16,506 nt of DNA. Source: a bacterium (GTDB taxonomy: Bacteria; RBG-13-66-14). The notes beneath the pieces were generated by a model. The model did no database searches, was not told the DNA's origin, and worked only from the letters and a program-made list of their open reading frames with translations. This document shows positions 199 through 16,506 of the stretch, piece by piece. The position numbers were made by a program, and so were the translations under genes. Every line of letters begins with the position of its first letter. The stretch's first letter is position 1. The stretch is taken from positions 1 through 16,506 of the forward strand of contig JAIOSI010000276.1 of assembly GCA_021107695.1 (NCBI GenBank). The letters are read 5' to 3'.

Positions 199-1437
199 CT
201 AGCCCTCGAAGCGTTTGAACGCCATGCGGGCGTTGTGTCCGCCCAAGCCGGGGCTGTTGGAGAGAGCGACCTTGTTTTCCATCTTCCGGTGGTCGCCGGG
301 GACGTAGTCGAGATCGCAATCTTCGCTTGGGTCGGTAAGGTTTGCCGTGGCGTGAACCAGACCGTTCTCGATGCTCTTCGCGACGACGACGGCTTCCAGA
401 CCGCCAGCGGCTCCCAGACCGTGACCGATCAGGGACTTGGTGGAGTTGACGGCAAGCTTGTAGGCGTGCTCACCAAAAACCGTCTTGATCGCCATCGTTT
501 CGTACTTGTCATTCAGCTCGGTGGAGGTTCCGTGGGCGTTAATGTAATCAACATCCGTCGGCTTCAGTCCGGCGTCTTCGATAGCCATCTTCATCGCCCG
601 AACCGCGCCTTCGCCACCGGGTGCCGGAGCGGTCAGGTGATGTCCGTCGCTGGAGAGTCCGTAGCCGACCAGCTCGCAGTAGATTTTTGCCCCACGGGCC
701 TGGGCGTGTTCCAGGGACTCGAACTGAAGAATCCCCGTGCCCTCGCCCATGATAAAGCCATCGCGTTTGGAGTCGAAGGGACAGGAGGCTTCTTCGGGCG
801 GGCAGTCGCGAGTAGTCAGCGCCCGGGCGGAGCAGAATCCACCAAAGCCCAGGTTGCCAATCGCTGCCTCGGATCCGCCAGCCAGCATCAGTTCAATTCT
901 GCCGCTGCGGATGTGATCGAAGGCCTCGCCGATGGCGTGGGTCGCTGAAGCGCAGGCACTGACCGTCGCCAGGTTCGGTCCCTTTAGTCCGGAGGCGATC
1001 GAGACCTGTCCCGCTGCCATATCGGCAATCACCATGGGAATAAAGAAGGGACTGATGCTCTTCGGTCCACGCTCTACAAACTTTTTGGCGGCCCGTTCGA
1101 TGGTGATGATATCGCCGATGCCCACACCGATGAAGACACCGAAGCGATCGCGGTCCACCGCTTCAAGGTCAATTCCGGAGTCTTCGAGAGCCTCTTTCGC
1201 CGCGGTCAACGAGAACTGGACAAAACGAGCGGCGCGTTTGGCGGTTCGTTTGTCAATGGTATCGTAGGGGTCGTAGCCCTTGACCTCGGCGGTTACCTTG
1301 CTGGGGTAGATGTCGGGGTCAACGGCGGTTGTGCTAGCCACTCCGAAACGCCCGGCGACAATGCTATCCCAGGTTTCCGGTACGTTCAGACCTACCGAGT
1401 TTACGTCACCCAATCCGGTAATGACGACACGTCTCAT
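199..1437 (-). CDS. fabF: Beta-ketoacyl-ACP synthase II (FabF)
   Basis: Condensing enzyme of type II fatty-acid synthesis. It elongates acyl-ACP with malonyl-ACP in the cytoplasm. At 412 residues it has the family's usual length and a complete thiolase fold. The active-site Cys is C162 in SACASATHA. The two catalytic His are H302 (NAHGTST) and H339 (SLIGHGLGA), with the conserved Lys K334 just before the latter. The glycine-rich GGSEAAI and GFIMGEG segments are also present. The ATG start has GGAGG 6 nt upstream. It lies 164 nt downstream of acpP on the same strand, the usual acpP-fabF pairing, although no fabD or fabG is visible upstream. The stop codon is TAG. Identification is firm; FabF rather than FabB is inferred from length, the MRRVVITGLG start and the acpP context. 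Confidence 0.96.
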   Translation of the reverse strand: MRRVVITGLGDVNSVGLNVPETWDSIVAGRFGVASTTAVDPDIYPSKVTAEVKGYDPYDTIDKRTAKRAARFVQFSLTAAKEALEDSGIDLEAVDRDRFGVFIGVGIGDIITIERAAKKFVERGPKSISPFFIPMVIADMAAGQVSIASGLKGPNLATVSACASATHAIGEAFDHIRSGRIELMLAGGSEAAIGNLGFGGFCSARALTTRDCPPEEASCPFDSKRDGFIMGEGTGILQFESLEHAQARGAKIYCELVGYGLSSDGHHLTAPAPGGEGAVRAMKMAIEDAGLKPTDVDYINAHGTSTELNDKYETMAIKTVFGEHAYKLAVNSTKSLIGHGLGAAGGLEAVVVAKSIENGLVHATANLTDPSEDCDLDYVPGDHRKMENKVALSNSPGLGGHNARMAFKRFEG

Positions 1438-1494
1438 GGTTTACCTCCGAAGAACTGTTCGCATAAAATAAGTGCTTTTCACAGCACACCGTTA

Positions 1495-1526
1495 AGATGG
1501 GCGTTCGCTCAAACGAACGCCCATCT
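1495..1526 (-). promoter_or_regulatory. Hairpin between acpP and fabF
   Basis: A perfect 13-bp inverted repeat (1495-1507 with 1514-1526, 6-nt loop) sits in the acpP-fabF spacer. On the minus strand the 3' arm is followed by only TTAA, so it is a poor terminator. It could be an attenuator, an RNA-processing site or a 3' stabiliser that keeps acpP mRNA more abundant than fabF mRNA. That role is inference; the inverted repeat is seen directly. Confidence 0.5.
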
Positions 1527-1601
1527 CTTACTCAGTGAATCTTCAGACAGCAATGTCGCAATCTCAGCGAATCGCTGCGAGCTTACCCGTAGTAAACTGC
1601 T

Positions 1602-1838
1602 TTAGGAGGCGTGCTCTTTGAGGTAGGTTACGGCATCGCCGACGGTGCGGATGTTACCGGCATCTTCGTCGGGGATTTCGATGTCGAACTCTTCTTCGAG
1701 CTTCATAACCAGCTCAACAGTGTCGAGGGAATCGGCACCGAGATCGTCCACAAAGGCTGCCTCAAGGGTAACCTGGTCGGCATCCACGGTCAGTTCGCTA
1801 ACTACGATTTCTTTCACTTTGGCTTCGATATCCGCCAT
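1602..1838 (-). CDS. acpP: Acyl carrier protein
   Basis: A small acidic carrier of growing acyl chains in fatty-acid synthesis. It is 78 residues long, typical for AcpP. The phosphopantetheine attachment site is S37 in the canonical [10 protein letters not shown] motif, followed by the acidic helix II and the EIPDEDA segment that docks partner enzymes. The ATG start has GGAGG 5 nt upstream (1843-1847 on the plus strand). It is first in a leftward acpP-fabF unit and has its own promoter at 1906-1934. The stop codon is TAA, one of only two TAA stops in the window. Confidence 0.97.
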
Positions 1839-1905
1839 TGATCCTCCACGGACAGTGCCTAAACAGGCGTGAGTTGTTTTAGAAAGGACTCTTGTCAGGG
1901 CGCGT

Positions 1906-1934
1906 AGTTTAGCAACTCAAAGGGGGAATGTCAA
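1906..1934 (-). promoter_or_regulatory. Sigma-70-type promoter of acpP
   Basis: On the minus strand a perfect -35 TTGACA (1929-1934) is separated by exactly 17 nt from a -10 TAAACT (1906-1911), followed about 65 nt later by the acpP start. Strong -35 matching suits a highly expressed gene. Found by reading the sequence; not experimentally supported. Confidence 0.6.
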
Positions 1935-2238
1935 GGTGTTGGAAACCGTGGGAATGATCAACTGCTTGCTCAACTGAATTGTCATGGAGAAGTTCGCCCT
2001 TTGCCAGACACAAAAAGAGGGCAAAGACATGTGTCGCCCAGTTTTTATGGTTACCCCTCACCCCCCAGCCCCTCTCCCCAAAGGGGAGAGGGTAGCTAAA
2101 ATCTCCGCTCTACATTAATGGGTAGCGACCAAGGGGAGCGCATACGCGGGTGGAACCGTTGTTTAGACAAGTCCGCCAGTCGCGAGTCTGTGTCCAGCTT
2201 CAAGCTGGTGATGCAACGCACCTCGTTGCTTAAGGGTG
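1935..2238. repeat. Gene-free gap with palindromic repeats
   Basis: No convincing gene is present in this divergent acpP/aminotransferase spacer. It contains a 10-bp GC palindrome CCCTCTCCCC/GGGGAGAGGG (2070-2079 with 2083-2092), embedded in a CCCTCACCCC-type context that recurs in altered form at 9161-9186 and 12621-12660. It also holds a minus-oriented copy of the modular hairpin family: CCAGCTT/AAGCTGG at 2194-2208 and GCAACG/CGTTGC at 2213-2229. Confidence 0.55.
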
Positions 2239-2267
2239 TTGTGAAAAGCTGTCGGCTGGGTTAACAT
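2239..2267 (+). promoter_or_regulatory. Possible promoter of the aminotransferase gene
   Basis: TTGTGA (2239-2244), a 17-nt spacer and TAACAT (2262-2267) match the sigma-70 pattern at 4/6 in each box. The start codon follows 53 nt further on. The match is moderate and could be fortuitous. Confidence 0.35.
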
Positions 2268-2320
2268 TCGTCTTGCTGGTTCTCGCTGCTCACCAAAATC
2301 CAACTTACAAGGAGTGTCAA

Positions 2321-3370
2321 GTGAGTAAACCTCGCTACTACTTCATCGGCGACGGAGACAAGGCGAACCTCGACTTCCCCAGCCTGCGCTTCGACTATCT
2401 CCGCTGTCCCTATCGTTTCGAGGCGATCTTCGAGCATGGTGTCTGGCGGGTACGCGGCGCCATCGAGGATAACGCCATGCACCTCCCCGAAGGCAGCCAG
2501 TGCCTCCACTACGGTCAGCAGCTCTTCGAAGGCATGAAGGTGCAGACCGGAGCCGACGGCAAGCTCTACGCCTTCCGCCCACGAGAGAACGCCAGACGGA
2601 TCAGCGACGGCGCGCGCTACCTCCACGGTCCGGAGATTCCCGAAGAGCTTTTCCTGCGGGGAATCGAAGAGGTTACCCTTGCCAACAAACCGTATATCCC
2701 GCCCTACGGCAGCGGAGCCGCCCTCTACGTCCGTCCCTTCTATCTGGGCATCGGCGATAACGTCGGCGTGAAACCCGCCAGCTCCTACATCTTCCGCATC
2801 TTCGTTACTCCGGTGGGTCCGTACTTCATCGGCGGCTTCGGTCCGGAGCAGGGCAAGGCGTTCCGGGTCTCCGAGTACGACCGCGCCGCCCCGATGGGAA
2901 CCGGGCATGTCAAGGCGGGCGGCAACTACGCCTGTTCCTTCCACCCCGGAGCCGAGGCGAAGGGCAGCGGCTACGCCGAGGCGCTCTACCTTGACCCCGT
3001 CGAGCATAAGTATATCGAGGAGATCGGCGCGGCGAACTTCCTCGCTCTCAAGGGCGATACCCTGCTCACGCCGAAGTCCGGGAGCATCCTGCCCTCGATC
3101 ACCCGCCGCTCGATTATGGAGCTGGGCGAGAAGGTCTTTAAGTGGAAGGTCGAGGAGCGGAAGATTGCCCTGATCGAGCTTGACGAGATCGACGCAGCGG
3201 CATGTTGCGGCACTGCGGCGGTGATTACCTGGATCAAGGAGATCGCGGGAGCCGACAAGAAGTGGAGCTTCCCCTTCGACAAACGCTGGCAGCAGCTCTA
3301 CGATAAGCTCACCGGCATCCAGACCGCCACCGAGGACGACCCCCTGGGCTGGCGTTACGAGATTAAGTAG
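2321..3370 (+). CDS. ilvE: Branched-chain amino acid aminotransferase
   Basis: A PLP enzyme interconverting Val, Leu and Ile with their 2-oxoacids, using 2-oxoglutarate/glutamate. The protein has 349 residues and a fold-type IV signature. The early segment HYGQQLFEGMK (about 63-73) is the family's substrate-side motif. K198 in GTGHVKAGGNY is the expected Schiff-base lysine. EEIGAANFLAL (233-243) matches the cofactor phosphate-binding strand. The start is taken as GTG at 2321 because AAGGAG lies 6 nt upstream; an in-frame ATG at 2273 lacks such a site. The length and spacing of motifs suit the longer (class II, eukaryotic-like) BCAT group. It is monocistronic: a strong terminator follows 29 nt after the TAG stop. 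No other ilv or leu gene is in the window. Confidence 0.93.
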   Translation: MSKPRYYFIGDGDKANLDFPSLRFDYLRCPYRFEAIFEHGVWRVRGAIEDNAMHLPEGSQCLHYGQQLFEGMKVQTGADGKLYAFRPRENARRISDGARYLHGPEIPEELFLRGIEEVTLANKPYIPPYGSGAALYVRPFYLGIGDNVGVKPASSYIFRIFVTPVGPYFIGGFGPEQGKAFRVSEYDRAAPMGTGHVKAGGNYACSFHPGAEAKGSGYAEALYLDPVEHKYIEEIGAANFLALKGDTLLTPKSGSILPSITRRSIMELGEKVFKWKVEERKIALIELDEIDAAACCGTAAVITWIKEIAGADKKWSFPFDKRWQQLYDKLTGIQTATEDDPLGWRYEIK

Positions 3371-3399
3371 CAGCGTCAGTAATAGTGTCGGATTGTTAC

Positions 3400-3427
3400 A
3401 AAACCTCCCCCACGCGGGGAGGTTTTT
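3400..3427 (+). terminator. Rho-independent terminator of ilvE
   Basis: A perfect stem AAACCTCCCC/GGGGAGGTTT with a 5-nt loop runs into TTTTT (3423-3427). It begins 29 nt after the ilvE stop codon and ends 14 nt before the next promoter, so it separates the two genes cleanly. Confidence 0.85.
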
Positions 3428-3441
3428 CTATGAGTTAACCC

Positions 3442-3470
3442 TTGACAACAAGAGTAAATGAGTATATATT
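3442..3470 (+). promoter_or_regulatory. Near-consensus sigma-70 promoter
   Basis: A perfect TTGACA (3442-3447), exactly 17 nt, then TATATT (3465-3470, 5/6 match). The local sequence is AT-rich. Transcription would start near 3477, about 50 nt before the propeller-protein start codon. This is the best promoter in the window and predicts strong expression of the secreted protein. Confidence 0.7.
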
Positions 3471-3529
3471 CTGGTTGTAACTGGAGTTCGTGTAATTGAG
3501 GTTTTCGTGAAGCTAAAGTGGAGGCAACA

Positions 3530-5587
3530 ATGCGCAGGCTGACAGGATTGTTTTTGATTCTCTTCGTGATGGTTGGTGTGAACTTTGCTGATGACGCTGT
3601 TCAGACCGACTGGTCGGGCGGTGGTGGCGTTGATGGTCCGGTTACCGACTGGGGCAATCGGTTTGATCGTCCAATTAATATTAATTGGTCGGATTTCCCC
3701 GGTGAACTGCACCTTGCTTTAGCACCAATTGAGCATACCATTGACAGCACCTATTATGGTGCCAATTTCGTATATGCAGCAGATGTTGACGGCGACGGCG
3801 ACCTGGACATACTGGGTTCGGGTGATGCTGGCACCAGCTGGTGGGAGAACGATGGCTCCGGTGGCGGCTGGACTGAGCATACCATTGACGATGCCAGATC
3901 GCGTTACGCTGCGGACGTTGACGGCGACGGCGACATGGACATACTGTGTTCGACCTATGATGCCAGTGACAGCATCTGGCTGGAGAACGACGGCTCTGGT
4001 GGTGGCTGGACCGAGCATCTTGTTAACGACAGCTTCGGCGGTTCCACGTCGGTTTACGCTGCGGACGTTGACGGCGACGGAGACTTGGACATACTGGGTT
4101 CGAGTATCGACGACGGCTTCATCTGGTGGGAGAACGACGGCTCTGGCGGCGGCTGGACCGAACATCTCGTTGATGGTATCCATGACAATGCGATGTCGGT
4201 TTACGCTGCGGACATTGACGGCGACGGAGACATGGACGTACTGGGTGCACTTTCTTACTTTGATCACTACATTAGCTGGTGGGAGAATACCGACGGTTTT
4301 GGCATTACCTGGACCGAGCATCTCGTTGACGGCAGCTTCTGCAATGCCAATGGTGTCTCTGCCGCCGACGTTGACGGTGACGGAGACATGGATATACTGG
4401 GTACAGCTGGGGGTGCCGACGACGACATCAGCTGGTGGGAGAACGACAGCTCTGGCGGCGGCTGGACTGAGCATCGCGTTGGTGACTACTGGGGCGGTGC
4501 AAATGATGTCTATGCCACCGACATTGATGGCGACGGAGACACGGACATACTCTGCGCAGCTTACTTTGCCAATGACATCAGCTGGTGGGAGAACGACGGC
4601 TCTGGCGGCGGCTGGACCGAACATACCGTTGATGTCAACTTCGGCGGTGCTGCTTCGGTTTACGCTGCGGACGTTGACGGCGACGGAAACATGGACATAC
4701 TGGGTGCGGCTGCTAGTTATAATGACATCACCTGGTGGGAGGCGGGGTTTAAAACTGGCAACCTGAACAGCTCGATTCTCGATACCGACGCTCTGCCGGA
4801 GTGGGGACAGATAAGCTGGACGGCGGATACTCCCACCGACACGACACTTTCCGTGAAAATCCGTGCCAGTAACGACTCCGACAATATGGGCGGGTGGATA
4901 CAGGTAGTTAACTCAGGTGATGAGCTGGGCGATTACCTGACCGACTACGACCGCTACTTCCAGTACAAGGTTGCCTTCGCAACGACGGACAGTGCTGTTA
5001 GCCCGACCTTTGAGGACATTACCATCAACTGGACAGATTGTACGGCGGTGGAATCCGTTGACCTCTCTGCCGAGGCTGCGGACGAAGGTGTGCTGCTGAG
5101 TTGGTCTATCATTGGTGATGAACCTGTGTCGCTCTCTGTCCTGCGCAGATGTGGCTCTGAGGAAACCCTTCACCCTATGGGTGAACTAAATGGTTCGGCG
5201 ACGAGCTGGCTCGATGTTTCCGCCGAGGCGGGCGTGGAGTACGCCTATTATCTTGAGGTTACGGAGTTCGACGGCACAGTCAGCCGCTTTGGTCCCAGCG
5301 AGGTAGTCGTTCCGGGAATGGTCAGCGAGCTGGCTCTGAGCGACCCGTACCCAAACCCAGCGGATGAGAGCCTGACTATTCACTACGAGTTGACCCAGAA
5401 TGGGTCAGTGGAGTTGAATGTTTACGACCTCTCCGGTCGTTTGGTGGAGACGTTGGTCAGCGGCGAGCAGACCGCCGGACGGCACAGCGTAAGTTGGGAT
5501 AGCTCCACCTCGGCGACGGGCGTTTACCTGCTGCGCCTTGAAGCAACGGGAGAGGCAATCACCAAACGCGCGGTGATCAGCCGGTAG
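3530..5587 (+). CDS. Secreted FG-GAP/VCBS beta-propeller protein with T9SS-type sorting domain
   Basis: A 685-residue exported protein of unknown ligand. A signal peptide (about 1-20: MRRLTGLFLILFVMVGVNFA) leads to a short Trp/Gly-rich region. Seven repeats of 44-52 residues follow, each carrying a DVDGDGDxDI-type calcium-binding loop and a WWENDGSGGGWTEH strand, as expected for a complete seven-bladed FG-GAP/VCBS propeller (about residues 80-405). Next come a beta-sandwich-like segment (about 410-500) and an Fn3-like segment (about 505-595). The C-terminus (about 597-685) has the PYPNPADESLTI, VYDLSGRLVETL and GVYLLRLEA pattern of type IX secretion sorting domains. The ATG at 3530 is preferred over GTG at 3518 because GGAGG lies 5 nt before it and the signal peptide then starts correctly. 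It sits alone between a promoter and a terminator. Surface location is inferred from the sorting domain. Confidence 0.88.
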   Translation: MRRLTGLFLILFVMVGVNFADDAVQTDWSGGGGVDGPVTDWGNRFDRPININWSDFPGELHLALAPIEHTIDSTYYGANFVYAADVDGDGDLDILGSGDAGTSWWENDGSGGGWTEHTIDDARSRYAADVDGDGDMDILCSTYDASDSIWLENDGSGGGWTEHLVNDSFGGSTSVYAADVDGDGDLDILGSSIDDGFIWWENDGSGGGWTEHLVDGIHDNAMSVYAADIDGDGDMDVLGALSYFDHYISWWENTDGFGITWTEHLVDGSFCNANGVSAADVDGDGDMDILGTAGGADDDISWWENDSSGGGWTEHRVGDYWGGANDVYATDIDGDGDTDILCAAYFANDISWWENDGSGGGWTEHTVDVNFGGAASVYAADVDGDGNMDILGAAASYNDITWWEAGFKTGNLNSSILDTDALPEWGQISWTADTPTDTTLSVKIRASNDSDNMGGWIQVVNSGDELGDYLTDYDRYFQYKVAFATTDSAVSPTFEDITINWTDCTAVESVDLSAEAADEGVLLSWSIIGDEPVSLSVLRRCGSEETLHPMGELNGSATSWLDVSAEAGVEYAYYLEVTEFDGTVSRFGPSEVVVPGMVSELALSDPYPNPADESLTIHYELTQNGSVELNVYDLSGRLVETLVSGEQTAGRHSVSWDSSTSATGVYLLRLEATGEAITKRAVISR
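3782..4745 (+). repeat. Seven in-frame propeller repeats
   Basis: The DNA encoding the DVDGDGD loops recurs at 3782, 3914, 4064, 4211, 4367, 4520 and 4670, with spacings of 132, 150, 147, 156, 153 and 150 nt, all multiples of three. Stretches such as GACGTTGACGGCGACGG are nearly identical between copies. This suggests growth by internal duplication or homogenisation by recombination. It is a protein repeat, not a mobile element. Confidence 0.85.
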
Positions 5588-5604
5588 GGTTTGATTGTGA
5601 TCGT

Positions 5605-5631: not shown

Positions 5632-5645
5632 CACCCCCTCACACG

Positions 5646-5782: not shown

Positions 5783-6943
5783 CTATTCCTCCGGGGCCTC
5801 TTCCTCAATGGCTTCCTCTGGTGTTTCAAGGTCTTCTTCACTAACGGGTTCTACCTCAACAGCTTCTTCGACGACTTCTTCAATCACGACTTCTTCAACA
5901 ACCTCTTCTTCCGGCTCATCGGCGGTCGCTTCGGCTGGCTCCCAGACGTCAAGGTCGAAGATTTCGATGGTGTGCGATCCCGTATTCGCCAGGTAGAGCA
6001 GTCGGTCTTCGTAGTTCAACGCAACCCCGGCAGGCTGGAGCAGCACCGTGCCGTCGTCGGCGGACAGCTCCATCTCGTCGAGGGGCCGACCGTCCTCCCG
6101 GTAAAGCTGGATGATGTTGTCCAGATCGTCCACCACGGCGATGAGACCTCCATCGGCTGCCAGAGCCGCTGGTGAGTTGAGCATGGTATCGAAGCTGTCC
6201 GTAATCCGGGCGCGATAATCGATGTGATAGACCATCCCGGTCTCGGTCAACGCCCAGAAGGAGCGGTCGTAGTCAATCGCCAGATCGATGATGTCGTTGA
6301 TATGCTCAAAGCCCTCGCCGGTGGGGTAGAGAACCTCGCCCAGCCCACCACGGCTGTCGAACTGGAACAGCTCCTCGTCGGAGGAGACCCACAGCTCGCC
6401 GACTCAGGACGCCACCAGAGAGAGGGGATGACCGGGGACATCGGCGGAGCCGATGAGGGTGTTGTCGTCGCGAATCAGGCTCCCTACCGAGGAGAGCGGG
6501 GTGGTGCTTTCGCTGACCACAAAGGCGGTGGAGACATCGGTAAACTTGATCACCGTTCCGGCTCCGGCATCGGCGAGGAAGATATGCCCCTGCTGGTTGA
6601 CCGAGAGGTCCTGGAAGCTGTAGGCACGCTCAGCACCACCGAAGTCGTAGTCGTAGGCGCGGTAGAGTCCGCCCTCGTTATCGAAAATCTGCACCCGTCG
6701 ATTGCCGCTGTCCAGGACGCAGAGCCTCCCGGAGCTGTCCAGAGCCAGAGCCGTTGGATTGAGCAACTCGCCGAGGTCGCTGCCGTAGTAGCTCAGGGTA
6801 TCGCGATGATACATCGAGACCCGTCCACCTTCTGCCAGCCGCACCGTCTCCTTGGCGGTAACCTCCATGTCGGAGTTCATCGTAAGCTGGCAACCGACGA
6901 CGAGCAGCGTGAGTACCATAAACAAAAAGACTGACTTCCTCAT
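5783..6943 (-). CDS. NHL-type beta-propeller lipoprotein interrupted by one in-frame TGA
   Basis: The reading frame runs from ATG (6943) to TAG (5783): 386 sense positions broken only by TGA at codon 180 (6404-6406). The N-terminus is a lipoprotein signal (MRKSVFLFMVLTLLVVGC, Cys at 18), so an envelope location is likely. About six NHL-like blades follow, for example NPTALALDSSGRLCVLDSG and QPAGVALNYEDRLLYLANTG. The tail (about 334-386) is very acidic and Glu/Val-rich. The TGA falls in the variable turn of one blade (PLSLVAS-stop-VGELWVSS), and the same frame continues the propeller on both sides. The first possible restart is a TTG 51 codons later with no ribosome-binding site. Options are a recent nonsense mutation, a sequencing error, or TGA read-through. 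Conservative gene calling would give 6404-6943 plus a downstream fragment. The ligand and role are unknown. Confidence 0.75.
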
Positions 6944-7059: not shown

Positions 7060-7917
7060 CTAAAGATACTCCCCGGCGATTGGCTTCAGGCGTTGCTTTG
7101 TCTCGGCGGAGATTCGTTCTTTGTCGGTTACGATTGCTCCCCGCAGGGCGTGGAAGCAGGGATCGTCCAGTTCCAGGGGAATCTCCGGAACCACCGCTTC
7201 GATGAGCTTGCGGGCGTGCTTTACATTGGCGGCAAAGTTCGCCATCACCATCTCTACGGAGACATCGTCGCTTTCGTGCCAGCAGTCGTAGTCGGTAACG
7301 AAGGCGGCGGTGGCATAGCCCAGCTCCGCCTCCCGCGCCAGTCGTGCCTCGGTGAGGTTGGTCATCCCGATAATTGAAACGCCCCAGGAGCGGTAAAGCT
7401 CGCTCTCCGCCCGGGTGGAGAATTGTGGTCCCTCCATGCAGAGGTAGCTGCCGCCGTCGTGGGCGCGGAGTTTGAGCTTCCGCGCTTGCGCCAGCATGAT
7501 CTGGCGCAGCGGCTCGCAGAAGGGATCGGCAAGGCTGACGTGGGCGACGATGCCCTCGGTGAAGAAGCTGTCCTGGCGGTGGCGGGTGCGGTCGATAAAC
7601 TGGTCGGGAAAGACGACATCCTGCGGGCTCAGCTCTTCCTTCATCGAGCCGACGGCGGAAATTGCCAGCACCCAGCGCACGCCGAGCATCTTCAAGGCGC
7701 AGATGTTGGCGCGGTAGTTCACCTCGCTGGGCGAGATACGATGTCCGCGACCGTGGCGGGGAATAAAGACGACCTCCCGCTCACCCAGACGGGCAACGGT
7801 CAGGCTGTCCGACGGCTCGCCAAAGGGAGTGCTGACCTTCTCTTCGCGAACATCGCTCAGTGAGTCCAGCTCGTACAATCCTGAACCGCCAATAATCCCA
7901 ATCCGAAACTTTTGCAT
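7060..7917 (-). CDS. mtnP: S-methyl-5'-thioadenosine phosphorylase
   Basis: Cleaves 5'-methylthioadenosine with phosphate to adenine and methylthioribose-1-phosphate, in methionine and purine salvage after polyamine synthesis. At 285 residues it is a full-length PNP/MTAP-family enzyme. GGSG at 10-13 and RHG at 54-56 are phosphate-binding segments. MEGPQFSTRAES (161-172) is the family signature around the ribose/methylthio site. TDYDCW (208-213) carries the Asp pair that favours 6-amino purines (adenine) over inosine or guanosine. The ATG start has a weak AAGGG 6 nt upstream. It lies 116 nt upstream of the lipoprotein gene on the same strand. No other methionine-salvage gene is adjacent. Stop codon TAG. 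Confidence 0.95.
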   Translation of the reverse strand: MQKFRIGIIGGSGLYELDSLSDVREEKVSTPFGEPSDSLTVARLGEREVVFIPRHGRGHRISPSEVNYRANICALKMLGVRWVLAISAVGSMKEELSPQDVVFPDQFIDRTRHRQDSFFTEGIVAHVSLADPFCEPLRQIMLAQARKLKLRAHDGGSYLCMEGPQFSTRAESELYRSWGVSIIGMTNLTEARLAREAELGYATAAFVTDYDCWHESDDVSVEMVMANFAANVKHARKLIEAVVPEIPLELDDPCFHALRGAIVTDKERISAETKQRLKPIAGEYL

Positions 7918-8205: not shown

Positions 8206-8294
8206 ACCGACGAGCAAGCTGAGTCAGATAAGTGTCAAATCCACGGGACAATTTAACCGTTCAAACGCTCTATCATCGACCATGAGGTATCATG

Positions 8295-8744
8295 ATGAGC
8301 TATACCGACAAGGTGATTGATCACTTTCAGAACCCCCGCAACGTGGGCGAGATCCCCGATGCCGACGGTATCGGGCGGGTGGGCAATCCCTCCTGCGGCG
8401 ACATTATGGAGATGTACATCAAGGTCGTGGACGGTGTGATCGTCCAATGCACCTTCAAGACCTTCGGCTGTGCCGCCGCCATCGCCACCAGTTCGATGAC
8501 CACGGAGCTGGTTATCGGCAAGACGATCGAAGAGGCCGAGCTGATGACCAAGAGCGACGTCGCCGAGTCCCTCGGCGGGCTGCCCAAGGTCAAGATGCAC
8601 TGCTCGAACCTTGCCACTGATGCCCTCCGGGCGGCGATTGCTCACTATCGCTGCAAGAGTAGCGGCAACTGCAAAGACCTGGCAAAGATGGACCTCAGCG
8701 ATGCCTGCGGTGCTGATCATCACCACGACGAGGATCTGGGTTAG
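8295..8744 (+). CDS. iscU: Fe-S cluster assembly scaffold, IscU/NifU N-terminal type
   Basis: A cytoplasmic scaffold on which Fe-S clusters are built and from which they are transferred. The protein has 149 residues and all IscU ligands in place: C34 and D36 in NPSCGD, C59 in FGCAAAIATSS, and H102/C103 in HCSNLA. LPKVK (96-100) corresponds to the LPPVK chaperone-recognition motif, with Lys for the second Pro. The C-terminus extends beyond the core with extra Cys (120, 126, 138) and a His/Asp-rich end (HHHDED) that could bind metal. Two ATGs are in frame; the one at 8295 is preferred because GAGGT lies 6 nt before it, against 3 nt for 8292. No cysteine desulfurase, HscA or ferredoxin gene is adjacent, so the partner IscS/NifS must be encoded elsewhere. 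NifU-like without the C-terminal Nfu domain is an equally fair name. Confidence 0.93.
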   Translation: MSYTDKVIDHFQNPRNVGEIPDADGIGRVGNPSCGDIMEMYIKVVDGVIVQCTFKTFGCAAAIATSSMTTELVIGKTIEEAELMTKSDVAESLGGLPKVKMHCSNLATDALRAAIAHYRCKSSGNCKDLAKMDLSDACGADHHHDEDLG

Positions 8745-9336: not shown

Positions 9337-12225
9337 ATGAAGTGGCTTTCTCGCAAGACAATTTTCATTATTCTGGGGATTCTGGTCGCGGCGGTGGTCC
9401 TTGTCGTCGCCCTGACCAGCTTCTTCGTGGATATCTTCTGGTACCAGTCCGAGGGCTTTGACGATGTCTTCTGGACGCGGATATTCTCGCAGATCGAGTT
9501 CGGCGCGATAATCTTCGGTCTCTATGCGGTCGTGGTGGGGCTGACGATTCTGCTGGCGCACCTCTTCTCGCGGAAAAAGCAGCAGGTTGTTTCCGAAGAG
9601 GCGGTGATGCTGCCGCAGTTCGGTGAGAAGCTGAAGAAGTACGGAATCTGGCTATTCATTGGGGTCGGCGCGATCTTCGCCGTCACCAACGGCTTCTCGG
9701 CTGGTTCTTCGTGGGGGGTCTGGAAGAAGTTCCTCCACAGTGTCAGCTTTGGAGTCAGCGATCCGATCTTCGGCAACGATGTCTCCTTCTACGTCTTCGA
9801 CCTGCCACTTTTCCGAATCATCTACGATCACCTCTTCGGAGCGCTACTGCTCTCCACGGTGGTTGCCGTGGGCTACTACCTCTTCCGGCGGGTAATCTGG
9901 GTAGAGAAGTGGAAGCTACGCTCCAGCAAGCTGGTCAAGGGGCATATCCTCAGCATGATCGGCTCGCTCTTTGCGTTGAAGGCGGTTGGATATTATCTGG
10001 ATAAGTTCGACATCCTCTACTCGACCCAGGGCGGAGTCTTCGGGGCGAGCTTTACCGATGTCAACGCCAACCTGCCGATGTACGAGGTTCTCTTCTGGAT
10101 CACCCTCGCCTTCGGTCTGGTCGCCTTCGCGCTGACCTTCCTGAAAACCGAGAACTTCAAGGTGCTGCTGATTATCGGGGCATCGTTTATCGTGCTGCCG
10201 TATCTCATGCTCTCGATCTACCCCTGGGCGGTACAGACGCTGGAGGTTGACCCCAACGAGTTCCAGGCGGAAGAGGAGTACATCGGGCATAACATCGAGT
10301 TTACACAGATTGCCTATGGTCTTGATAAAGTTGATGTTTTGACCTTTGGCGAGCGTGGAGAACTAAAAGAGATTGAGGTCGAAGAATTAGCTGAGTTCAG
10401 TGAAGTCCTCCCCACCGAAACTCCCGTTGAGGTGGTTGAAGAGATCGAAGTTGTGGAGGGAGCCGGCGGCTATCGCGCCCTGACCCGGGCTGACATCGAG
10501 GACAACCGCCCCACCATAGACAACATCCGCCTCTGGGACTGGTCTCCCCTGGGCGATGTCTATCGGCAGATGCAGTCCTTCCGCCCGTACTACGAGTTCG
10601 TGGATGTGGACATCGACCGCTACATGATTGACGGGCATCAGAAGTCAATCACCCTGGCTCTGCGTGAACTGAACGTTGACCGCCTCGACAGTCAGGCGAA
10701 CACCTGGCAGAACCGCCACCTGGTCTATACCCACGGCTACGGTGCGGTGGCGAATACCGTCAACGAGGTTACCAAGTACGGTCAGCCGAAGTTCATCCTC
10801 AAGGACATCCCACTGATTAACGAAATGGGAATCGGTCTTGAGCGTCCGCAGATCTACTTTGGCGAGGGCAACATGGACTACTCCTTTGCCCCCACCGGAG
10901 CCGACGAGATCGACTACCCCCGTGGCTCCACCAACGCCTTTACCGAGTACACCGGCGAGGGCGGAATCCCCGTCGGTGGCTTCTGGCGGAGGCTGCTGCT
11001 GTCGATCTATCTGGGCAATATCGATGTCCTGCTCTCTGACTACATCACCGAGGACAGCAACCTGCTGATTCGCCGTAACATCAGCCAGCGGGTTCGGGAG
11101 GTCGCGCCGTACCTGGCTCTGGATAACGACCCCTACCCGGTGCTGACCGACGGTGGCATTCAGTGGATTGTTCAGTGCTTCACCACCACCAGGCTGTACC
11201 CGTATTCCGAGCCGCTGGTTGATAACGCCAACTACATCCGCAACTCTGCGGTGGTGGTGATTGATGCCTACAGCGGCAAGATGGACTTCTACACCATGGG
11301 CGATGACCCGCTCATCCGCACCTGGGGTGCCATCTTCCCAGGTATGTACAAGCCCTTCGAGGAGATGCCGGAGGAGCTTCAGGCACACATTCGCTATCCC
11401 AACGAGCTGTTCGCCATCCAGTCCGTCGTCTATTCGACCTACCACATGACCGATCCTTTGGTCTTCTACAACAAGAGCGACCGCTGGGTCATCCCCGGTC
11501 GTCCTGAGGGCGAGCTGTTCAACGCCTATTACATGACGATGCGGCTCCCCAGCGAGGAGAGCGAAGAGTTCCTGCTCATCTCCCCCTTCGTTCCGGAGAA
11601 TCGCCAGAACATGGTCGGCTGGATGTGCGCTCGCTGCGACCCCGGAGTCTATGGGGAGCTGGTTCTCTATACCTTCCCGACGACCAGCCTGGTTTACGGA
11701 CCGGAGCAGGTCGAGGGTCGCCTCAACCAGTTCGACAAGTTCTCCGAGAAACGCTCGCTCTGGGATCAGCAGGGTTCCAGCGTGGTCATCGGACGGATGG
11801 TGGTCATCCCGATTGAGGACTCGGTACTCTACGTCCAGCCGGTTTACCTAAAGGCGGTTGGCAATCCGATTCCGGAGCTGCGTCTGGTGCTGGTTACCTA
11901 CGGCACCGAGATCGCCATGGACACCACCCTCGAAGGAGCCTTAGCCCAGATATTCGGCTCGGCGGCTCCGGTAGTTGAGGGCGATGTAGCAGAGGTTGGT
12001 GAAGACACAGCCGAGACTACCGAAGCTATAGAGGCTGGTCTAACCGAGGAAGTGGTTGAACTACCGGTACTCTCCACAGAAACCGCTGAACTGGCGGAGC
12101 TGCTGCTGGAGACCTACGATCGTGGTCAAAAGGCGATGCAGCGTGGCGACTGGGCTGCCTACGGTGAGGCCGATGCCGAGCTTGAGCGGCTGATCAACGC
12201 CATCTCCGAGAGTCTGTCTGAGTAA
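9337..12225 (+). CDS. UPF0182 family integral membrane protein
   Basis: 962 residues, function unknown. The N-terminal third has seven hydrophobic segments at about 8-31, 50-77, 102-120, 155-184, 203-221, 249-269 and 275-297, as in UPF0182 (COG1615). The rest should be a large soluble domain outside the membrane (inference). Family landmarks include WYQSEGFDDVFWTRI (35-49), EVDPNEF with HNIEFTQIAYGLDKV (303-333), RQMQSFRPYYEFVDVDIDRY (410-429), HLVYTHGYGAVANTVNEVT and PQIYFGE. Two Glu/Val-rich acidic stretches (about 341-375 and 880-915) have more A/T-rich codons than their flanks and look like inserts. The ATG start has TTGGAG 5 nt upstream. It stands alone, with repeats on both sides; a GGGCGAAC/GTTCGCCC hairpin 27 nt after the TAA stop may terminate it. 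Confidence 0.92.
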   Translation: MKWLSRKTIFIILGILVAAVVLVVALTSFFVDIFWYQSEGFDDVFWTRIFSQIEFGAIIFGLYAVVVGLTILLAHLFSRKKQQVVSEEAVMLPQFGEKLKKYGIWLFIGVGAIFAVTNGFSAGSSWGVWKKFLHSVSFGVSDPIFGNDVSFYVFDLPLFRIIYDHLFGALLLSTVVAVGYYLFRRVIWVEKWKLRSSKLVKGHILSMIGSLFALKAVGYYLDKFDILYSTQGGVFGASFTDVNANLPMYEVLFWITLAFGLVAFALTFLKTENFKVLLIIGASFIVLPYLMLSIYPWAVQTLEVDPNEFQAEEEYIGHNIEFTQIAYGLDKVDVLTFGERGELKEIEVEELAEFSEVLPTETPVEVVEEIEVVEGAGGYRALTRADIEDNRPTIDNIRLWDWSPLGDVYRQMQSFRPYYEFVDVDIDRYMIDGHQKSITLALRELNVDRLDSQANTWQNRHLVYTHGYGAVANTVNEVTKYGQPKFILKDIPLINEMGIGLERPQIYFGEGNMDYSFAPTGADEIDYPRGSTNAFTEYTGEGGIPVGGFWRRLLLSIYLGNIDVLLSDYITEDSNLLIRRNISQRVREVAPYLALDNDPYPVLTDGGIQWIVQCFTTTRLYPYSEPLVDNANYIRNSAVVVIDAYSGKMDFYTMGDDPLIRTWGAIFPGMYKPFEEMPEELQAHIRYPNELFAIQSVVYSTYHMTDPLVFYNKSDRWVIPGRPEGELFNAYYMTMRLPSEESEEFLLISPFVPENRQNMVGWMCARCDPGVYGELVLYTFPTTSLVYGPEQVEGRLNQFDKFSEKRSLWDQQGSSVVIGRMVVIPIEDSVLYVQPVYLKAVGNPIPELRLVLVTYGTEIAMDTTLEGALAQIFGSAAPVVEGDVAEVGEDTAETTEAIEAGLTEEVVELPVLSTETAELAELLLETYDRGQKAMQRGDWAAYGEADAELERLINAISESLSE

Positions 12226-12248
12226 CACCAAAACAGAAACTTTTGTCT

Positions 12249-12506: not shown

Positions 12507-12782
12507 GGTAGTGGATTTGATCAGGAAGGGTATTCTAAATCAATGACAAACCTGCGGGCCGACCTAAAGGTCGGCCCCTACATAAACCTCGCGCTTGCTC
12601 AAACTCCCTTTCATCGCTTAGAAACCTTCCCCTCCCCCCAGTGGGGGGAGGGATTAAGGGAGGGAGGCTAACGCCAGAGATGTTAACTTTTGCAAAAACC
12701 TCTAAGTGTTAATCGTTCCAAATGGTTAATCCTGCGGTTGTCTATTCGGTCAGGGGAGGTTGTCCAGTTTTAAGCTGCCCCC

Positions 12783-12811
12783 TTGTCTGCTCTGAAGCCC
12801 TTGACTATAAT
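12783..12811 (+). promoter_or_regulatory. Sigma-70-type promoter of the DUF2207-like gene
   Basis: TTGTCT (12783-12788, 4/6), exactly 17 nt, then a perfect TATAAT (12806-12811). The leader would be only about 25 nt, ending in AGGAGG (12831-12836) and a TTG start. Confidence 0.6.
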
Positions 12812-12842
12812 CAGCGGACTCAGGTAAATCAGGAGGAAGCCC

Positions 12843-14678
12843 TTGCGTCGTTACGGTCTGCTATTGCTGATTCTGCTCATCGCGCTGCCCGCCGGGGCGA
12901 GCTACTACTTCGAGCTACCCCGAATGGTCGCCACCGTGGCGATTAATCCCGCTGGCGACTGCGACATCTACTACGAGCTGACCTTCGCCAATCGCTCCTG
13001 GAGTCAGCCGGTGGATGTGGTGGATATCGGCCTGCCCAACGACGGCTGGGACATCACCACGGCGGCGGCGTGGCAGACCTCGCCGATGAGCGAGTTTCCC
13101 GCTCCGGTGAGGAATGAAGAGTACGAGGCTGCCCTCGCCCAGACCGGCGATGAAGCCCACACGCTGGAGCAGGAGGCGATCACCCAGTACGGTCAGCAGT
13201 GCCAGACCAACGACTCGCTGGTTACCCTGAACTCGATCAACAACAGCGAGTACGTCGAGGGAGTGGAGGTCTGGCTCGACGAGCCGCTCTACGAAGACGA
13301 AGCCGCCACCCTCTTTTTCCAGATCAAGACCTACCACTTTATCTATCCCGACGATGATAATGACGACTACGCCTCGGTGGAGTTCGCCCCGACCTGGTTC
13401 GGCAGTGAGTTTGTCAGCGGAAACAAAGACCTGACTGTAAAGATCGTCTTCCCCCCTGGAGTAACGCCGGAGGAGACTATCTATCACGGGCGGGAGTACG
13501 ACTACTGGACAACCATCGGCGAGGGCGAGAGCGAGCAGATAGTCTTCGTCTGGAACGACCCCTACGCCGGAACCGGCTACCAGGCGGATAACGTCGGGGT
13601 CAGCTTCCCGCGCAAGTACCTCGCCGATGACGCCGTTTATGTGCCCAGCGCGCTGGAGGAGTTCTTCGTCGGGCTTTGGATGTTCATCGTTGATATTTTC
13701 GAGATGTTTGGCTATTGCATCCTGCCGATTGGCTTCTTCATCATCAGCGCGCTGGCATCGTTCTTCGGTCGCCGTCGCCGCCGGATGCGCTACCTGCCGC
13801 CCTCGGCATCGGTAGAGGGAATCGGCATCAAGCGCGGTCTCACTGCGGTAGAAGCCGCCGTGGTGATGGAGCTGAAGCTGGACCGCATCCTCAACATGAT
13901 CATGTTTGGGCTGATTCGGAAGGGTCGGATTGAGGTTACAGACCAGAAACCACTGAAGCTCCGACGGCTCCCGGTTGCTGGCTCGGTCGGTGCAGCAGCA
14001 GCAACCCCAAAGCTCTACACTTACGAGCTGAAGTTCCTTGAGGCTCTGGACAACAGTAGTGGCAAACTTGCCAAAGGAAAACTCCGCACCCTCTTCGTCA
14101 GCCTGATTAGCGCGGTCAACAAAAAGCTAAAGGGTTTCTCCCGCAAGGAGACCAGAGAATACTACCGCGCCATCGTCGAGAAGGCGTGGAAGCAGGTCGA
14201 GGCAGGCGAGAACGGCGAAATCAAGATGGAGGCGTGGGACAGAGAGCTTGAGTGGGTGCTGATCGACAAGGACTTCAACGGACGCACCAGGCGAGCCTTC
14301 GGCGACCTCTACGTTCCCTATCCCCACTGGTGGGGACGCTACTATCCCAGCTACGGCGGTGGCGGATCCTTCGGCGGAGGTGGCTCGGTTGGTACGGGTG
14401 GCGGCTCCGGTGGCGGTTCCGCGCCGGGACGACTACCCCACCTGCCCGGTTCGCAGTTCGCCAACGATCTTGCCAATGGTGCCAGCGGCTTTGCCGGAGG
14501 TATCCTCGGCGACGTGAGCAGCTTCACCGGGTCTGTTACCAGCTCGACCAATCCCGTTCCGGTCAGCAGCTCATCGGGCGGCTATCGAGGAGGTTCCTCC
14601 TCCGGCGGTGGAAGCAGCTGCGCCTGTGCCTGCGCCTGCGCCGGATGTGCCTGCGCCTGCGCCGGAGGCGGACGCTAG
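12843..14678 (+). CDS. DUF2207-like membrane protein with glycine-rich, Cys-Ala C-terminus
   Basis: 611 residues, function unknown. The start is TTG, supported by AGGAGG 6 nt upstream and by the signal peptide that follows (about 1-19, ending PAGAS). Residues 20-270 form a beta-rich exported domain (opening YYFELPRMVATVAINPAGDC). A long hydrophobic segment (about 275-308) is followed by RRRRR (310-314), which places the rest in the cytoplasm. The part after it (YLPPSASVEGIGIKRGLTAVEAAV, 318-341, then a helix and GLIRKGRIEV) is a winged-helix-like arrangement as in DUF2207/YciQ-type proteins. The last 105 residues are Gly/Ser-rich, and the final 19 (593-611) alternate Cys and Ala, with seven Cys, ending GGGR. 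The family call rests on architecture, not on a search. Confidence 0.75.
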   Translation: MRRYGLLLLILLIALPAGASYYFELPRMVATVAINPAGDCDIYYELTFANRSWSQPVDVVDIGLPNDGWDITTAAAWQTSPMSEFPAPVRNEEYEAALAQTGDEAHTLEQEAITQYGQQCQTNDSLVTLNSINNSEYVEGVEVWLDEPLYEDEAATLFFQIKTYHFIYPDDDNDDYASVEFAPTWFGSEFVSGNKDLTVKIVFPPGVTPEETIYHGREYDYWTTIGEGESEQIVFVWNDPYAGTGYQADNVGVSFPRKYLADDAVYVPSALEEFFVGLWMFIVDIFEMFGYCILPIGFFIISALASFFGRRRRRMRYLPPSASVEGIGIKRGLTAVEAAVVMELKLDRILNMIMFGLIRKGRIEVTDQKPLKLRRLPVAGSVGAAAATPKLYTYELKFLEALDNSSGKLAKGKLRTLFVSLISAVNKKLKGFSRKETREYYRAIVEKAWKQVEAGENGEIKMEAWDRELEWVLIDKDFNGRTRRAFGDLYVPYPHWWGRYYPSYGGGGSFGGGGSVGTGGGSGGGSAPGRLPHLPGSQFANDLANGASGFAGGILGDVSSFTGSVTSSTNPVPVSSSSGGYRGGSSSGGGSSCACACACAGCACACAGGGR

Positions 14679-14679
14679 G

Positions 14680-15012
14680 CAGCGGCAGCTTAAAGCTGCA
14701 CATAGCATTACGATTAACCGCTAATCCATAGCTCACGATTATCTCCGCGTTTGACCGCTCCCGCTGGACGCTAGCAGCGCGGTGCGCTGCACCACAAGGC
14801 TGGGCTTCGCCCAGAACACCTTGTATCGCTCCCGCTGGTCGCTCTTTTACGCCCTCTCTCCTCTGGGAAGGAACTCATCCCACGGGTCAGAGTGAGGGGT
14901 TATATCAGAAAAAATGAGGTGACAATCTACCCTCACGGAGACGACGTAACCCGCCGTAGGGGCACGGCATGCCGTGCCCCTACAAAACCACCAACAACCA
15001 TTATCAGCGGCT
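14680..15012. repeat. Repeat-filled gap downstream of DUF2207-like gene
   Basis: No gene is visible. Contents: GCAGCTT/AAGCTGC (14685-14699); a box CGCTCCCGCTGGACGCT (14756-14772); a modular copy with stems GCAGCGC/GCGCTGC (14774-14790) and CTGGGC/GCCCAG, TTC loop (14800-14814), followed by GAACACCTTG and CGCTCCCGCTGGTCGCTC (to 14845); and a perfect 28-bp GTAGGGGC palindrome (14956-14983). Confidence 0.65.
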
Positions 15013-15041
15013 TTTACATATTTCGCAACAGTCCCTATCTA
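15013..15041 (+). promoter_or_regulatory. Possible promoter of the small secreted protein gene
   Basis: TTTACA (15013-15018, 5/6), a 17-nt spacer and TATCTA (15036-15041, 3/6), about 30 nt before the start codon. The -35 match and spacing are good but the -10 is weak. Confidence 0.35.
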
Positions 15042-15070
15042 CCATTGCTTCAAAACTCAGGGAGGTTCAG

Positions 15071-15703
15071 ATGCGCTGGTTACCCGTGCTTCTCGTTCTT
15101 GCTTTTGCCATGCCGGTTTTCGCTGGCAGTATCGTCGTTGGCTTTTGCGACGAATGCGGTTACGAAACCGATGAGTTCTTCATCGGCGGTGGCATGACCC
15201 CGGGGTACTCCGCCTCGGTTTACCTCGATCCCGAAACCGGAGAGTTCCACAAGGTGGGCTTCAATATTGTCCTGGTTGTTGCCGATGAGATCGCGGTTAA
15301 CATCAACAACAACCACCACGAGTTTGGTGAGCTATCCGCTGAAGAGATCGCAGTCAACATTACCAACAACCACCGTGGGATTGGGATAGATATCGCCGAA
15401 AAAATTGCCGTCAACATCACCAACAACCACCGTGAGCTTGGCGAGGTAACCGCTGAGAACGTTGCTGCTGTCATCAACGACATCTACATGGAAACCACTG
15501 ATACCTCAATCTATCGCTGGACAGCACCCGTGGTGTTAGGAGAGCTTCTCCTGGACGACAGACTGCCAGCAGGTGTTTTCTTATCTGATGAAGCCGCTGA
15601 AGTCTCGTTTAACTTGGAGCTGGTCAATATCGACACTCGGAACCATTGCCCAGCCTGTGGTGGAAGGACCATCGCCTTTGAACGGGTCGGCAAGTGGGAT
15701 TAG
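15071..15703 (+). CDS. Small secreted protein with split CxxC pairs and three tandem 19-residue repeats
   Basis: 210 residues, not recognised as a named family. The start at 15071 is chosen over an upstream in-frame ATG (14969) because GGAGG lies 5 nt before it and a clean signal peptide follows (MRWLPVLLVLAFAMPVFAGS). The mature protein begins with FCDECGYETDEFFIGGGM (C26, C29) and ends with HCPACGGRT (C193, C196). Together these resemble the two knuckles of a zinc ribbon, separated by about 165 residues. Residues 72-128 are three tandem copies of an EIAVNITNNHRxxG-type 19-mer, plus a decayed fourth (ENVAAVINDIY). The opening CxxCGY...IGGGM resembles small cytosolic zinc-ribbon proteins, so a secreted derivative with an insertion is possible (inference). 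The gene is monocistronic and ends at a bidirectional terminator. Confidence 0.72.
   Translation: MRWLPVLLVLAFAMPVFAGSIVVGFCDECGYETDEFFIGGGMTPGYSASVYLDPETGEFHKVGFNIVLVVADEIAVNINNNHHEFGELSAEEIAVNITNNHRGIGIDIAEKIAVNITNNHRELGEVTAENVAAVINDIYMETTDTSIYRWTAPVVLGELLLDDRLPAGVFLSDEAAEVSFNLELVNIDTRNHCPACGGRTIAFERVGKWD
15284..15454 (+). repeat. Three tandem 57-nt direct repeats
   Basis: Units at 15284-15340, 15341-15397 and 15398-15454 share the pattern GARATYGC-GT-AACAT-A-CAACAACCACC. Synonymous differences are common (GCG/GCA/GCC; GTT/GTC), while IAVNI-NNH is kept. A decayed fourth unit may follow at 15455. In-frame duplication with protein-level conservation is the simplest reading. Confidence 0.8.
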
Positions 15704-15735
15704 CTTGAATCTTGCGCAATCGATCTGGATTACCG

Positions 15736-15773
15736 GATATAGAAAAGACCCCTTTTGGGGTCTTTTCTATATC
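15736..15773. terminator. Bidirectional Rho-independent terminator
   Basis: A perfect 17-bp stem (15736-15752 with 15757-15773) closes a TTTT loop; the arms contain GACCCC and GGGGTC next to A/T tracts. It sits between the convergent stops at 15703 and 15794, so it can end both the small secreted protein gene and porB. Confidence 0.75.
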
Positions 15774-15793
15774 TGCGAGTAACGGTACGGTGT

Positions 15794-16506
15794 CTAAAAC
15801 TCTGCCGCCAGTTCCTCGGTCATCTTTACCTTCGCCTCAAGGAGCTTCCAGCGGTAGTCCCGCTGCTTGCGAATGTGGTCGATATGCTCCGGCTTGAGGT
15901 GCTTGAAGCGTCCCTGAAGCCCGAGGTAGTCCTCCAGCGGCTTGAACGTCTTCGGTTTGTAGTTGACCTTGTAAACGCCATCAACAACTTCGTAGAGCTG
16001 CCAGATTCCGGTCTGTACCACCAGACGGGCTGCCTGGACGGAGAAGTCAGCCTGCATCTTCCAGCCCGGTGGGCAGCTGGCGAATATCTGAATGTACTTG
16101 GCTCCCCGAATCTCTTTGGCTTTGTTGACCTTCTTGATGAAGTCTTCGGGGTGGCTGATCGAGGCGGTGGCGGCGTAGCGGATGCCGTGCGCCACCATGA
16201 TCTCCATGACGTTCTTCTTCTCTTCTTTCTTGAAGTGCCGCACCGGGGTGGTCGTCGTCCAGGCACCGTAAGGCGTGGAGCCGGAACGCTGGATTCCGGT
16301 GTTCATGTACGCCTCGTTGTCGTAGCAGATGTAGAGGATGTCTTCGTCTCGTTCGACGGCTCCGGAGAGAGCCTGAAGACCGATGTCCGCCGTGCCGCCA
16401 TCTCCCGCCCAAGCAACCACGTTTGTGTGGTCGTTGCCCCGAATGGAGAGACCGTTGCGGATACCCGACGCGGTAATCGCGGCGGTCTCGAAGGCGGTAT
16501 GGAAGA
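15794..16506 (-). CDS. porB: Pyruvate:ferredoxin oxidoreductase beta subunit, 5' part missing
   Basis: The thiamine-diphosphate-binding subunit of the enzyme oxidising pyruvate to acetyl-CoA and CO2 with reduction of ferredoxin, an anaerobe-type reaction. The gene runs off the window edge; 236 C-terminal residues are present, and the family's length suggests that roughly 75 N-terminal residues with the Fe-S cysteines are lost. The ThDP/Mg motif is AWAGDGGTADIG followed by YDNEAYMNTGIQRS. Further family segments are STPYGAWTTTTPV, RYAATASISHPEDF and IFASCPPGW. The frame is open to the edge, so the ATG at 16418-16420 is internal (MVAWAGDGG). The other subunits (A, G, D) should lie upstream, beyond the window. 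A 2-oxoacid oxidoreductase of other specificity is possible; the STPYGAWTTTTP segment favours pyruvate. Confidence 0.92.
   Translation of the reverse strand, partial: FHTAFETAAITASGIRNGLSIRGNDHTNVVAWAGDGGTADIGLQALSGAVERDEDILYICYDNEAYMNTGIQRSGSTPYGAWTTTTPVRHFKKEEKKNVMEIMVAHGIRYAATASISHPEDFIKKVNKAKEIRGAKYIQIFASCPPGWKMQADFSVQAARLVVQTGIWQLYEVVDGVYKVNYKPKTFKPLEDYLGLQGRFKHLKPEHIDHIRKQRDYRWKLLEAKVKMTEELAAEF

Follow-up and report, generated by a model that had tools for sequence, protein, structure and literature searches.

Gene ends rich in TAG and poor in TGA in a GC-rich bacterium of the lineage RBG-13-66-14 that appears to keep the standard code

Bacteria that end few of their genes with TGA are known from several settings. 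In some of them TGA has been reassigned, i.e., to Trp in Mycoplasmatales/Entomoplasmatales and insect symbionts and to Gly in Gracilibacteria and Absconditabacteria, and in a screen of 250,000 genomes the known bacterial changes of TGA were solely to Trp or Gly (PMC8629427). Other bacteria use more UAG than UGA while retaining both release factors and the standard code, a pattern expected only where the third-site A+T content exceeds about 0.71; an excess of UAG over UGA need not imply reassignment (Wei et al. 2016, PMC4989110). In Flavobacterium johnsoniae, frameshifting in prfB, the gene for release factor 2 (RF2), is low, and 7% of stops are RF2-specific (PMC12421855). Here, we compare with these systems the gene ends of a 16,506-nucleotide stretch from an uncultured bacterium of the lineage RBG-13-66-14 (assembly GCA_021107695.1, contig JAIOSI010000276.1; the whole stretch is referred to as the window) and of the genome bin to which it belongs, in which TAG is the majority stop codon.

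Analogous to the bacteria described by Wei et al., this genome uses TAG more than TGA, carries both release factors and appears to keep the standard bacterial code; their pattern, however, is expected at AT-rich third sites, whereas the third-site G+C of the window genes is 0.62–0.82. The gene ends are largely cleared of TGA, as they are in TGA-reassigned bacteria, but RF2 is kept, no matching UCA-anticodon tRNA was found and the interior TGAs are few and inconsistent. With F. johnsoniae, the genome shares a retained prfB frameshift motif and low TGA use; the low frameshifting is experimental in that species, whereas a weaker pairing is predicted here. We lean, with modest confidence, toward a standard code in which RF2 continues to recognize TGA as a stop and the choice of stop has been tilted toward release factor 1 (RF1), the likeliest source being low output or activity of RF2.

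We class the genome as an extreme case of a known type of stop-codon bias, one that occurs here at a GC content where it was not expected. Bacterial use of TAG has been characterized as low and unresponsive to GC, the "TAG paradox" (Ho and Hurst, PMC9348620), and whether release factors drive or follow stop use is disputed (PMC4989110 versus PMC8789281). A GC-rich lineage with about 55% TAG, about 11% TGA, slightly shifted non-coding DNA and TGA-using relatives is a useful case for this dispute; a comparable GC-rich, TAG-majority case was not found in the open-licence literature searched, per-genome supplementary tables being outside its scope.

Stop codons of the window, the genome and its relatives

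The window corresponds to contig C174, one of 315 in a bin of 1,832,185 bases that is 70.58% complete, has a reported contamination of 0.51% and in which 16S was not found. Eighty contigs were sampled; 13 were N and were excluded, and the remaining 67 amount to 440,760 bases. Genes were called with a simple home-made codon-usage caller, the strict set excluding genes shorter than 120 amino acids or scoring below 0.17 per residue. Comparisons were made within 14 genomes of the phylum, i.e., this genome and 13 relatives, six of them from the same family, and with 80 prfB-centered loci at 46–55% identity among the matches listed, none of them apparently from the phylum of the window (the unrelated loci below).

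The preliminary description of the window had reported that none of its genes ends in TGA, and re-reading the 11 genes returned the same count (nine TAG, two TAA; Table 1). The avoidance of TGA with dominance of TAG and TAA, which that description had taken from the window, holds genome-wide. TAG ends 142 (56%), TAA 84 (33%) and TGA 28 (11%) of the 254 strict genes, the TGA tally containing the interrupted clpC and yidC and one antisense open reading frame from the window; the whole call set of 351 genes is divided into 183 TAG, 122 TAA and 46 TGA. The shift relative to the six family relatives (TGA 131, TAG 117, TAA 88 of 336 genes) is pronounced, since this genome ends 146 of 264 genes with TAG, 88 with TAA and 30 with TGA (chi-square 58.8, p = 2e-13). 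Furthermore, 61 reciprocal orthologue pairs with matching ends, in which some genes occur several times, end in this genome with TAG (34), TAA (19) or TGA (8). Among the 14 phylum genomes sampled, it has the highest TAG use and the lowest TGA/(TGA+TAG), the TAG share of stops in the 13 relatives lying between 0.20 and 0.47.

The unrelated loci confirm the expectation that TGA is the commonest stop of GC-rich bacteria, as it leads at GC contents of 55% and above, where TAG accounts for 0.27–0.33. The companion expectation that TAG is the rarest stop fails in this set, because TAA is rarer than TAG from 60% GC (0.22 versus 0.33 at 60–65% GC, 0.15 versus 0.28 at 65–70% and 0.04 versus 0.33 at 70–75%). 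A TGA fraction typical for its GC content was looked for in this genome and not found: 0.11 of stops are TGA, compared with 0.38 in unrelated loci of 55–60% GC. TGA/(TGA+TAG) is at or below 0.2 in 1 of the 31 unrelated loci with 50–65% GC and at least 8 genes, and, with GC disregarded, 4 of 52 loci have TAG at the end of half or more of their 8–18 genes, so a sample of few genes can be rich in TAG. The probability of no TGA in 11 genes is 0.005 at the rate of unrelated loci of 55–60% GC (0.38), 0.004 at that of the family relatives (0.39) and 0.25 at that of its own genome (0.12); the probability of at least nine TAG in 11 is 0.0002, 0.002 and 0.058, respectively. The window is thus ordinary for its genome, and it is the genome itself that is the outlier. 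For five window genes (fabF, ilvE, the lipoprotein gene, mtnP and the UPF0182 gene), TGA ends 9 of 29 family orthologues versus 0 of 5 genes here.

A skew of this kind might be produced by a fragmented bin or by the home-made gene caller, and the number of contigs, the incompleteness, the N contigs (13 of 80) and interior stops suggestive of sequence errors all speak for such an artefact. The same caller nevertheless returns ordinary values for the 80 unrelated loci and for the relatives, the matched orthologue ends agree, the reported contamination is low and TGA:TAG is only mildly heterogeneous among the contigs of this genome (p = 0.07), which leaves an artefact very improbable.

Non-coding DNA leans in the same direction as the stops, but the stops lean far more. 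The TAA:TAG:TGA proportions are 0.33:0.56:0.11 at gene stops (strict set), 0.33:0.27:0.40 for intergenic stop triplets and 0.34:0.31:0.35 in 3' flanks read on the sense strand; in unrelated loci of 55–60% GC, they are 0.31:0.20:0.48 in intergenic DNA and 0.34:0.20:0.46 in 3' flanks. Drift with local mutation bias, in which the shift tracks the lower GC and the triplet preferences of the lineage and release factors are uninvolved, would account for the shared direction relative to the unrelated loci; its premise is the GC content of the lineage, 57% compared with 61–66% in the family, and it agrees with the view that it is the release factors that adjust to stop use and not the reverse (Ho and Hurst, PMC8789281). 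The non-coding shift is, however, far too small, TGA making up 0.35–0.40 there versus 0.11 of stops, and unrelated loci of equal GC retain their higher TGA share; we hold this explanation to be unlikely. Mutation bias as the only cause is rejected on the same figures. Fewer overlapping gene ends are likewise rejected as the cause: coupled genes number 26 of 254 here versus 39 of 232 in family relatives, and TGA ends just 18 of the 228 uncoupled genes.

In-frame stops, tRNAs and the genetic code

The preliminary description had judged a full reassignment of TGA to be unsupported, and the genome agrees, with RF2 kept and the few interior TGAs falling at differing residues. The interior-stop scan returned 19 TAG, 11 TGA and 5 TAA without a spanning called gene, most of which are true ends or antisense. 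Sense-strand cases were chosen by eye from protein motifs, and the scan overlooked the TGA of the window; the tally is a judgement. Five sense-strand in-frame TGAs were recognized, namely one probable selenocysteine (Sec) codon and those of the window lipoprotein gene, clpC, a gene for a DnaC/IstB-like ATPase, and yidC.

The TGA at codon 180 of the lipoprotein gene, which re-reading confirmed as the single in-frame TGA in the window genes, occupies a position that is Trp in 6/6 family genomes and in the proteins P0121–P0126. P0121 (386 residues) equals the window lipoprotein with Trp at the TGA codon; the longest contig bearing it has 11,786 bases and is not that of the window, but there is a small chance that it is a recoded reading of the DNA of the window itself; P0122 and P0123, which are 85% and 88% identical to the window lipoprotein, also have Trp there. 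Given these intact copies elsewhere, a sequence error or a recent mutation is the likeliest origin of this codon. The clpC TGA aligns with Gly in two, Asp in one and Ala in one of four relatives, and with Gly in P0001, an intact ClpC 98% identical to that of this genome, while the ATPase TGA aligns with Gly in 2/2 relatives. Outside the probable Sec codon, the four interior TGAs stand at differing residues (Trp, Gly/Asp/Ala and Gly, the one in yidC being without a residue call). Additionally, two genes of this genome, pheT (L185:2991, +) and one encoding an Omp85 protein (L028:3775, −), contain in-frame TAGs, which suggests sequence errors or recent assembly mutations; Pfam domains span the TAG in Omp85 and flank it on either side in pheT. 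The interior stops fit scattered sequence errors or recent mutations and not a new code.

An ongoing change of TGA into a codon for Trp or Gly, as had been raised earlier, would find favor in the scarcity of TGA gene ends and in interior TGAs at one Trp and two Gly positions. The residues disagree, however, and TAG is found inside genes as well; the genome retains RF2 together with its TGA-dependent autoregulation, the UCA tRNA found is tRNA-Sec only (in an incomplete bin), and TGA ends core genes. Genes resembling lpxC, nusB, ndk, sfsA, prmC and rpe are among those ending in TGA. This transition is not borne out, and we find it hardly credible. TGA as Gly, suggested by the two Gly-position TGAs, was dropped because the window TGA is at Trp, one Gly column also holds Ala and Asp, TAGs are interior as well and the 98% identical clpC is intact.

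tRNAs were read at 27 places, with the UCA anticodon in tRNA-Sec only and none found for Lys, Asp, Glu or Tyr. The search for a UCA-anticodon tRNA that had been proposed for Trp, Gly or Sec was therefore positive for Sec and negative for Trp and Gly among these 27 places; the latter is weak evidence because the bin is incomplete and tRNAs for those four amino acids are missing. A UCA-anticodon tRNA pattern, used without a positive control, had no match in this genome and six matches in 4 of 13 genomes, none of which is a tRNA by ARAGORN.

Selection against a leaky TGA that is unrelated to the level of RF2, e.g., through efficient reading of UGA by a near-cognate tRNA-Trp, is in keeping with the Trp position of the interior TGA in the window and with the readthrough of UGA with Trp at about 2% in Escherichia coli (PMC8954436). 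The tRNA-Trp gene, however, looks ordinary by eye (with no comparison set), no suppressor-like tRNA-Trp is apparent in the same way, and interior TGAs fall on Gly positions too; leakiness of this kind is a slim prospect.

This genome has both tRNA-Sec (C249:3936–4029) and selB (C249:1993–3870), as would be expected of Sec decoding, and the two genes adjoin; the family relatives have matches over the cut-off to tRNA-Sec in 4/6 and to selB in 5/6 genomes. A TGA at L025 1861 is common to the relative G003 (L069, 10646) and lies in a Cys-like context of a cytochrome c554/c7 domain protein; this gene (L025:1723–3015, +) and its counterpart (L069 about 10646, +) are probable selenoprotein genes. Sec is rejected for the TGA of the window, where the position is Trp in all six family genomes. 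In-frame TGAs beside Cys were also seen in the relatives G007 (L076 15620, +) and G012 (L077 18674, −; L078 4426, −), and these three, of which two have a U-x-x-C-like context, are possible selenoprotein genes. The family relatives carry Sec genes yet use TGA freely, and Sec decoding, being site-specific, does not explain the stop skew.

Release factors and the proposed tilt toward RF1

Absence of RF2, one of the explanations offered in the preliminary description, is contradicted by an intact gene, and loss of RF2 is rejected. The prfB of this genome scores above the curated cut-off, has no interior stops and is 74% identical to those of two family relatives; it contains SPF and GGQ, which, together with PxT, we take to be release-factor motifs. 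Its leader of 21 in-frame codons is followed by CTT TGA C, the site of +1 frameshifting in prfB autoregulation. An intact prfA is present as well. Across the phylum, prfB is over the cut-off in 13/14 genomes, the exception, G005, having prfB in pieces beside an N run, and prfA is over the cut-off in 12/14; a prfA match over the cut-off was not found in G001 (99% complete) or G004 (96% complete), where the gaps are probably those of the assemblies. The codon-reading motif of the RF1 encoded by this prfA (L297) is PST, and in 11 other prfA of the phylum it is PVT (6) or PET (5). In G012, the prfB match (L310) begins at profile position 123 and the motifs were not found by script.

As the code appears standard and the skew lies chiefly at the stops, our view is that termination in this lineage favors RF1. 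We propose that TGA remains a stop for a normal-looking RF2, and is probably Sec in a few genes, and that a preference exerted on the stop codons themselves has carried most genes away from TGA and to TAG and TAA, the codons read by RF1. We infer selection as the force, and the likeliest reason for such a tilt would be a low output or activity of RF2 relative to RF1. A candidate handle is the prfB frameshift controlling RF2 synthesis, as its Shine-Dalgarno-like stimulator has a weaker predicted pairing with the ribosome: the stimulator is TGGGAG here versus TGGGGG in six family relatives, and the predicted duplex energy is −7.0 versus −9.7 in the five relatives scored. The consensus described for this element is near AGGGGG and lies three bases ahead of CTT (PMC12421855); TGGGAG falls outside it. 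The energies refer to the 15 bases preceding CTT with the spacing not fixed, G005 and G009 being rated strong by eye and G012 being left out, since its motifs were not found by script. TGA/(TGA+TAG) is 0.32–0.69 in the nine phylum genomes with a strong stimulator and 0.17–0.50 in the four with a weak one. Reduced prfB frameshifting lowers fitness according to the phylogenetic and experimental work reported in PMC13245932. The base that makes the stimulator GGGAG could itself be a sequence error.

Several observations weigh against low RF2 output set by the stimulator and, more generally, against a tilt in termination. The contrast between the nine strong and four weak genomes has a two-sided p of 0.09, which becomes 0.20 when this genome is left out, and the Spearman test of stimulator energy against TGA use in 11 phylum genomes gives p = 0.11; G011 has the weakest stimulator yet a TGA/(TGA+TAG) of 0.50. 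In the unrelated loci, rho is −0.31 with p = 0.03 (48 loci) and a partial p of 0.07, permutation gives p = 0.09–0.12 (64 loci) and TGA use does not change monotonically over the energy bins, its lowest value not being in the weakest bin. According to PMC13245932, UGA use is not significantly associated with autoregulation. Furthermore, G012 is equally TGA-poor (6/59), yet its stops are mostly TAA, and non-coding TAG is somewhat high in this genome (0.31 in 3' flanks and 0.27 in intergenic DNA, against 0.20 in both for unrelated loci of 55–60% GC), which makes some mutational or context effect likely. The statistics for the stimulator are weak, and its difference is put forward as a lead only for the cause of the low TGA use.

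The stronger proposal, that this is a natural RF2-limited bacterium in which a change of the prfB stimulator cut RF2 output and the genome swapped TGA for TAG and TAA, is doubtful. If it were true, a first step of codon capture would have been taken through a regulatory change and not through low GC, TGA use throughout the bacteria would be predictable from the strength of the stimulator and a GC-rich genome would have acquired TAG as its majority stop by this route.

Window features and repeats near gene ends

The positions of the stop codons in the window and of the single in-frame TGA are collected in Table 1, together with the ends of the family orthologues.

Table 1. Stop codons and in-frame TGA of the window genes (window positions)
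Feature	Position	Strand	Gene	Remarks
fabF stop TAG	199..201	-	199-1437	family orthologue ends TAA 3, TAG 1, TGA 1 (5 found)
acpP stop TAA	1602..1604	-	1602-1838	
ilvE stop TAG	3368..3370	+	about 2318-3370	family orthologue ends TGA 4, TAG 2 (n=6)
Propeller protein stop TAG	5585..5587	+	3518-5587	
Lipoprotein gene stop TAG	5783..5785	-	5783-6943	family orthologue ends TAG 3, TAA 2, TGA 1 (n=6)
In-frame TGA, lipoprotein gene codon 180	6404..6406	-		Trp position in the alignment of relatives
mtnP stop TAG	7060..7062	-	7060-7917	family orthologue ends TGA 3, TAG 2, TAA 1 (n=6)
iscU stop TAG	8742..8744	+	8292-8744	
UPF0182 gene stop TAA	12223..12225	+	9337-12225	family orthologue ends TAG 3, TAA 3 (n=6)
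DUF2207-like gene stop TAG	14676..14678	+	12843-14678	
15071 gene stop TAG	15701..15703	+	15071-15703	
porB stop TAG	15794..15796	-	extends past window end	

The exact word GTAGGGGCG occurs six times in the window (at 5603, 5758, 8929, 9123, 12249 and 12498; three per strand) where 0.13 copies are expected, and TAGGGGCG has 107 copies in the 440,760 bases sampled; together they look like a dispersed intergenic repeat family. These repeats were rejected as the source of the TAG stops, the bases 3' of TAG stops differing from the repeat. Two unrelated proteins (L022 2323–2781, −, and L197 5552–7303, −) end in the same C-terminal residues, CVASQD, and the next codon is TGA in both genes, as though the two ends stemmed from one repeat. 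The protein encoded at 15071–15703 contains a repeated unit, EIAVNI(T/N)NNH.

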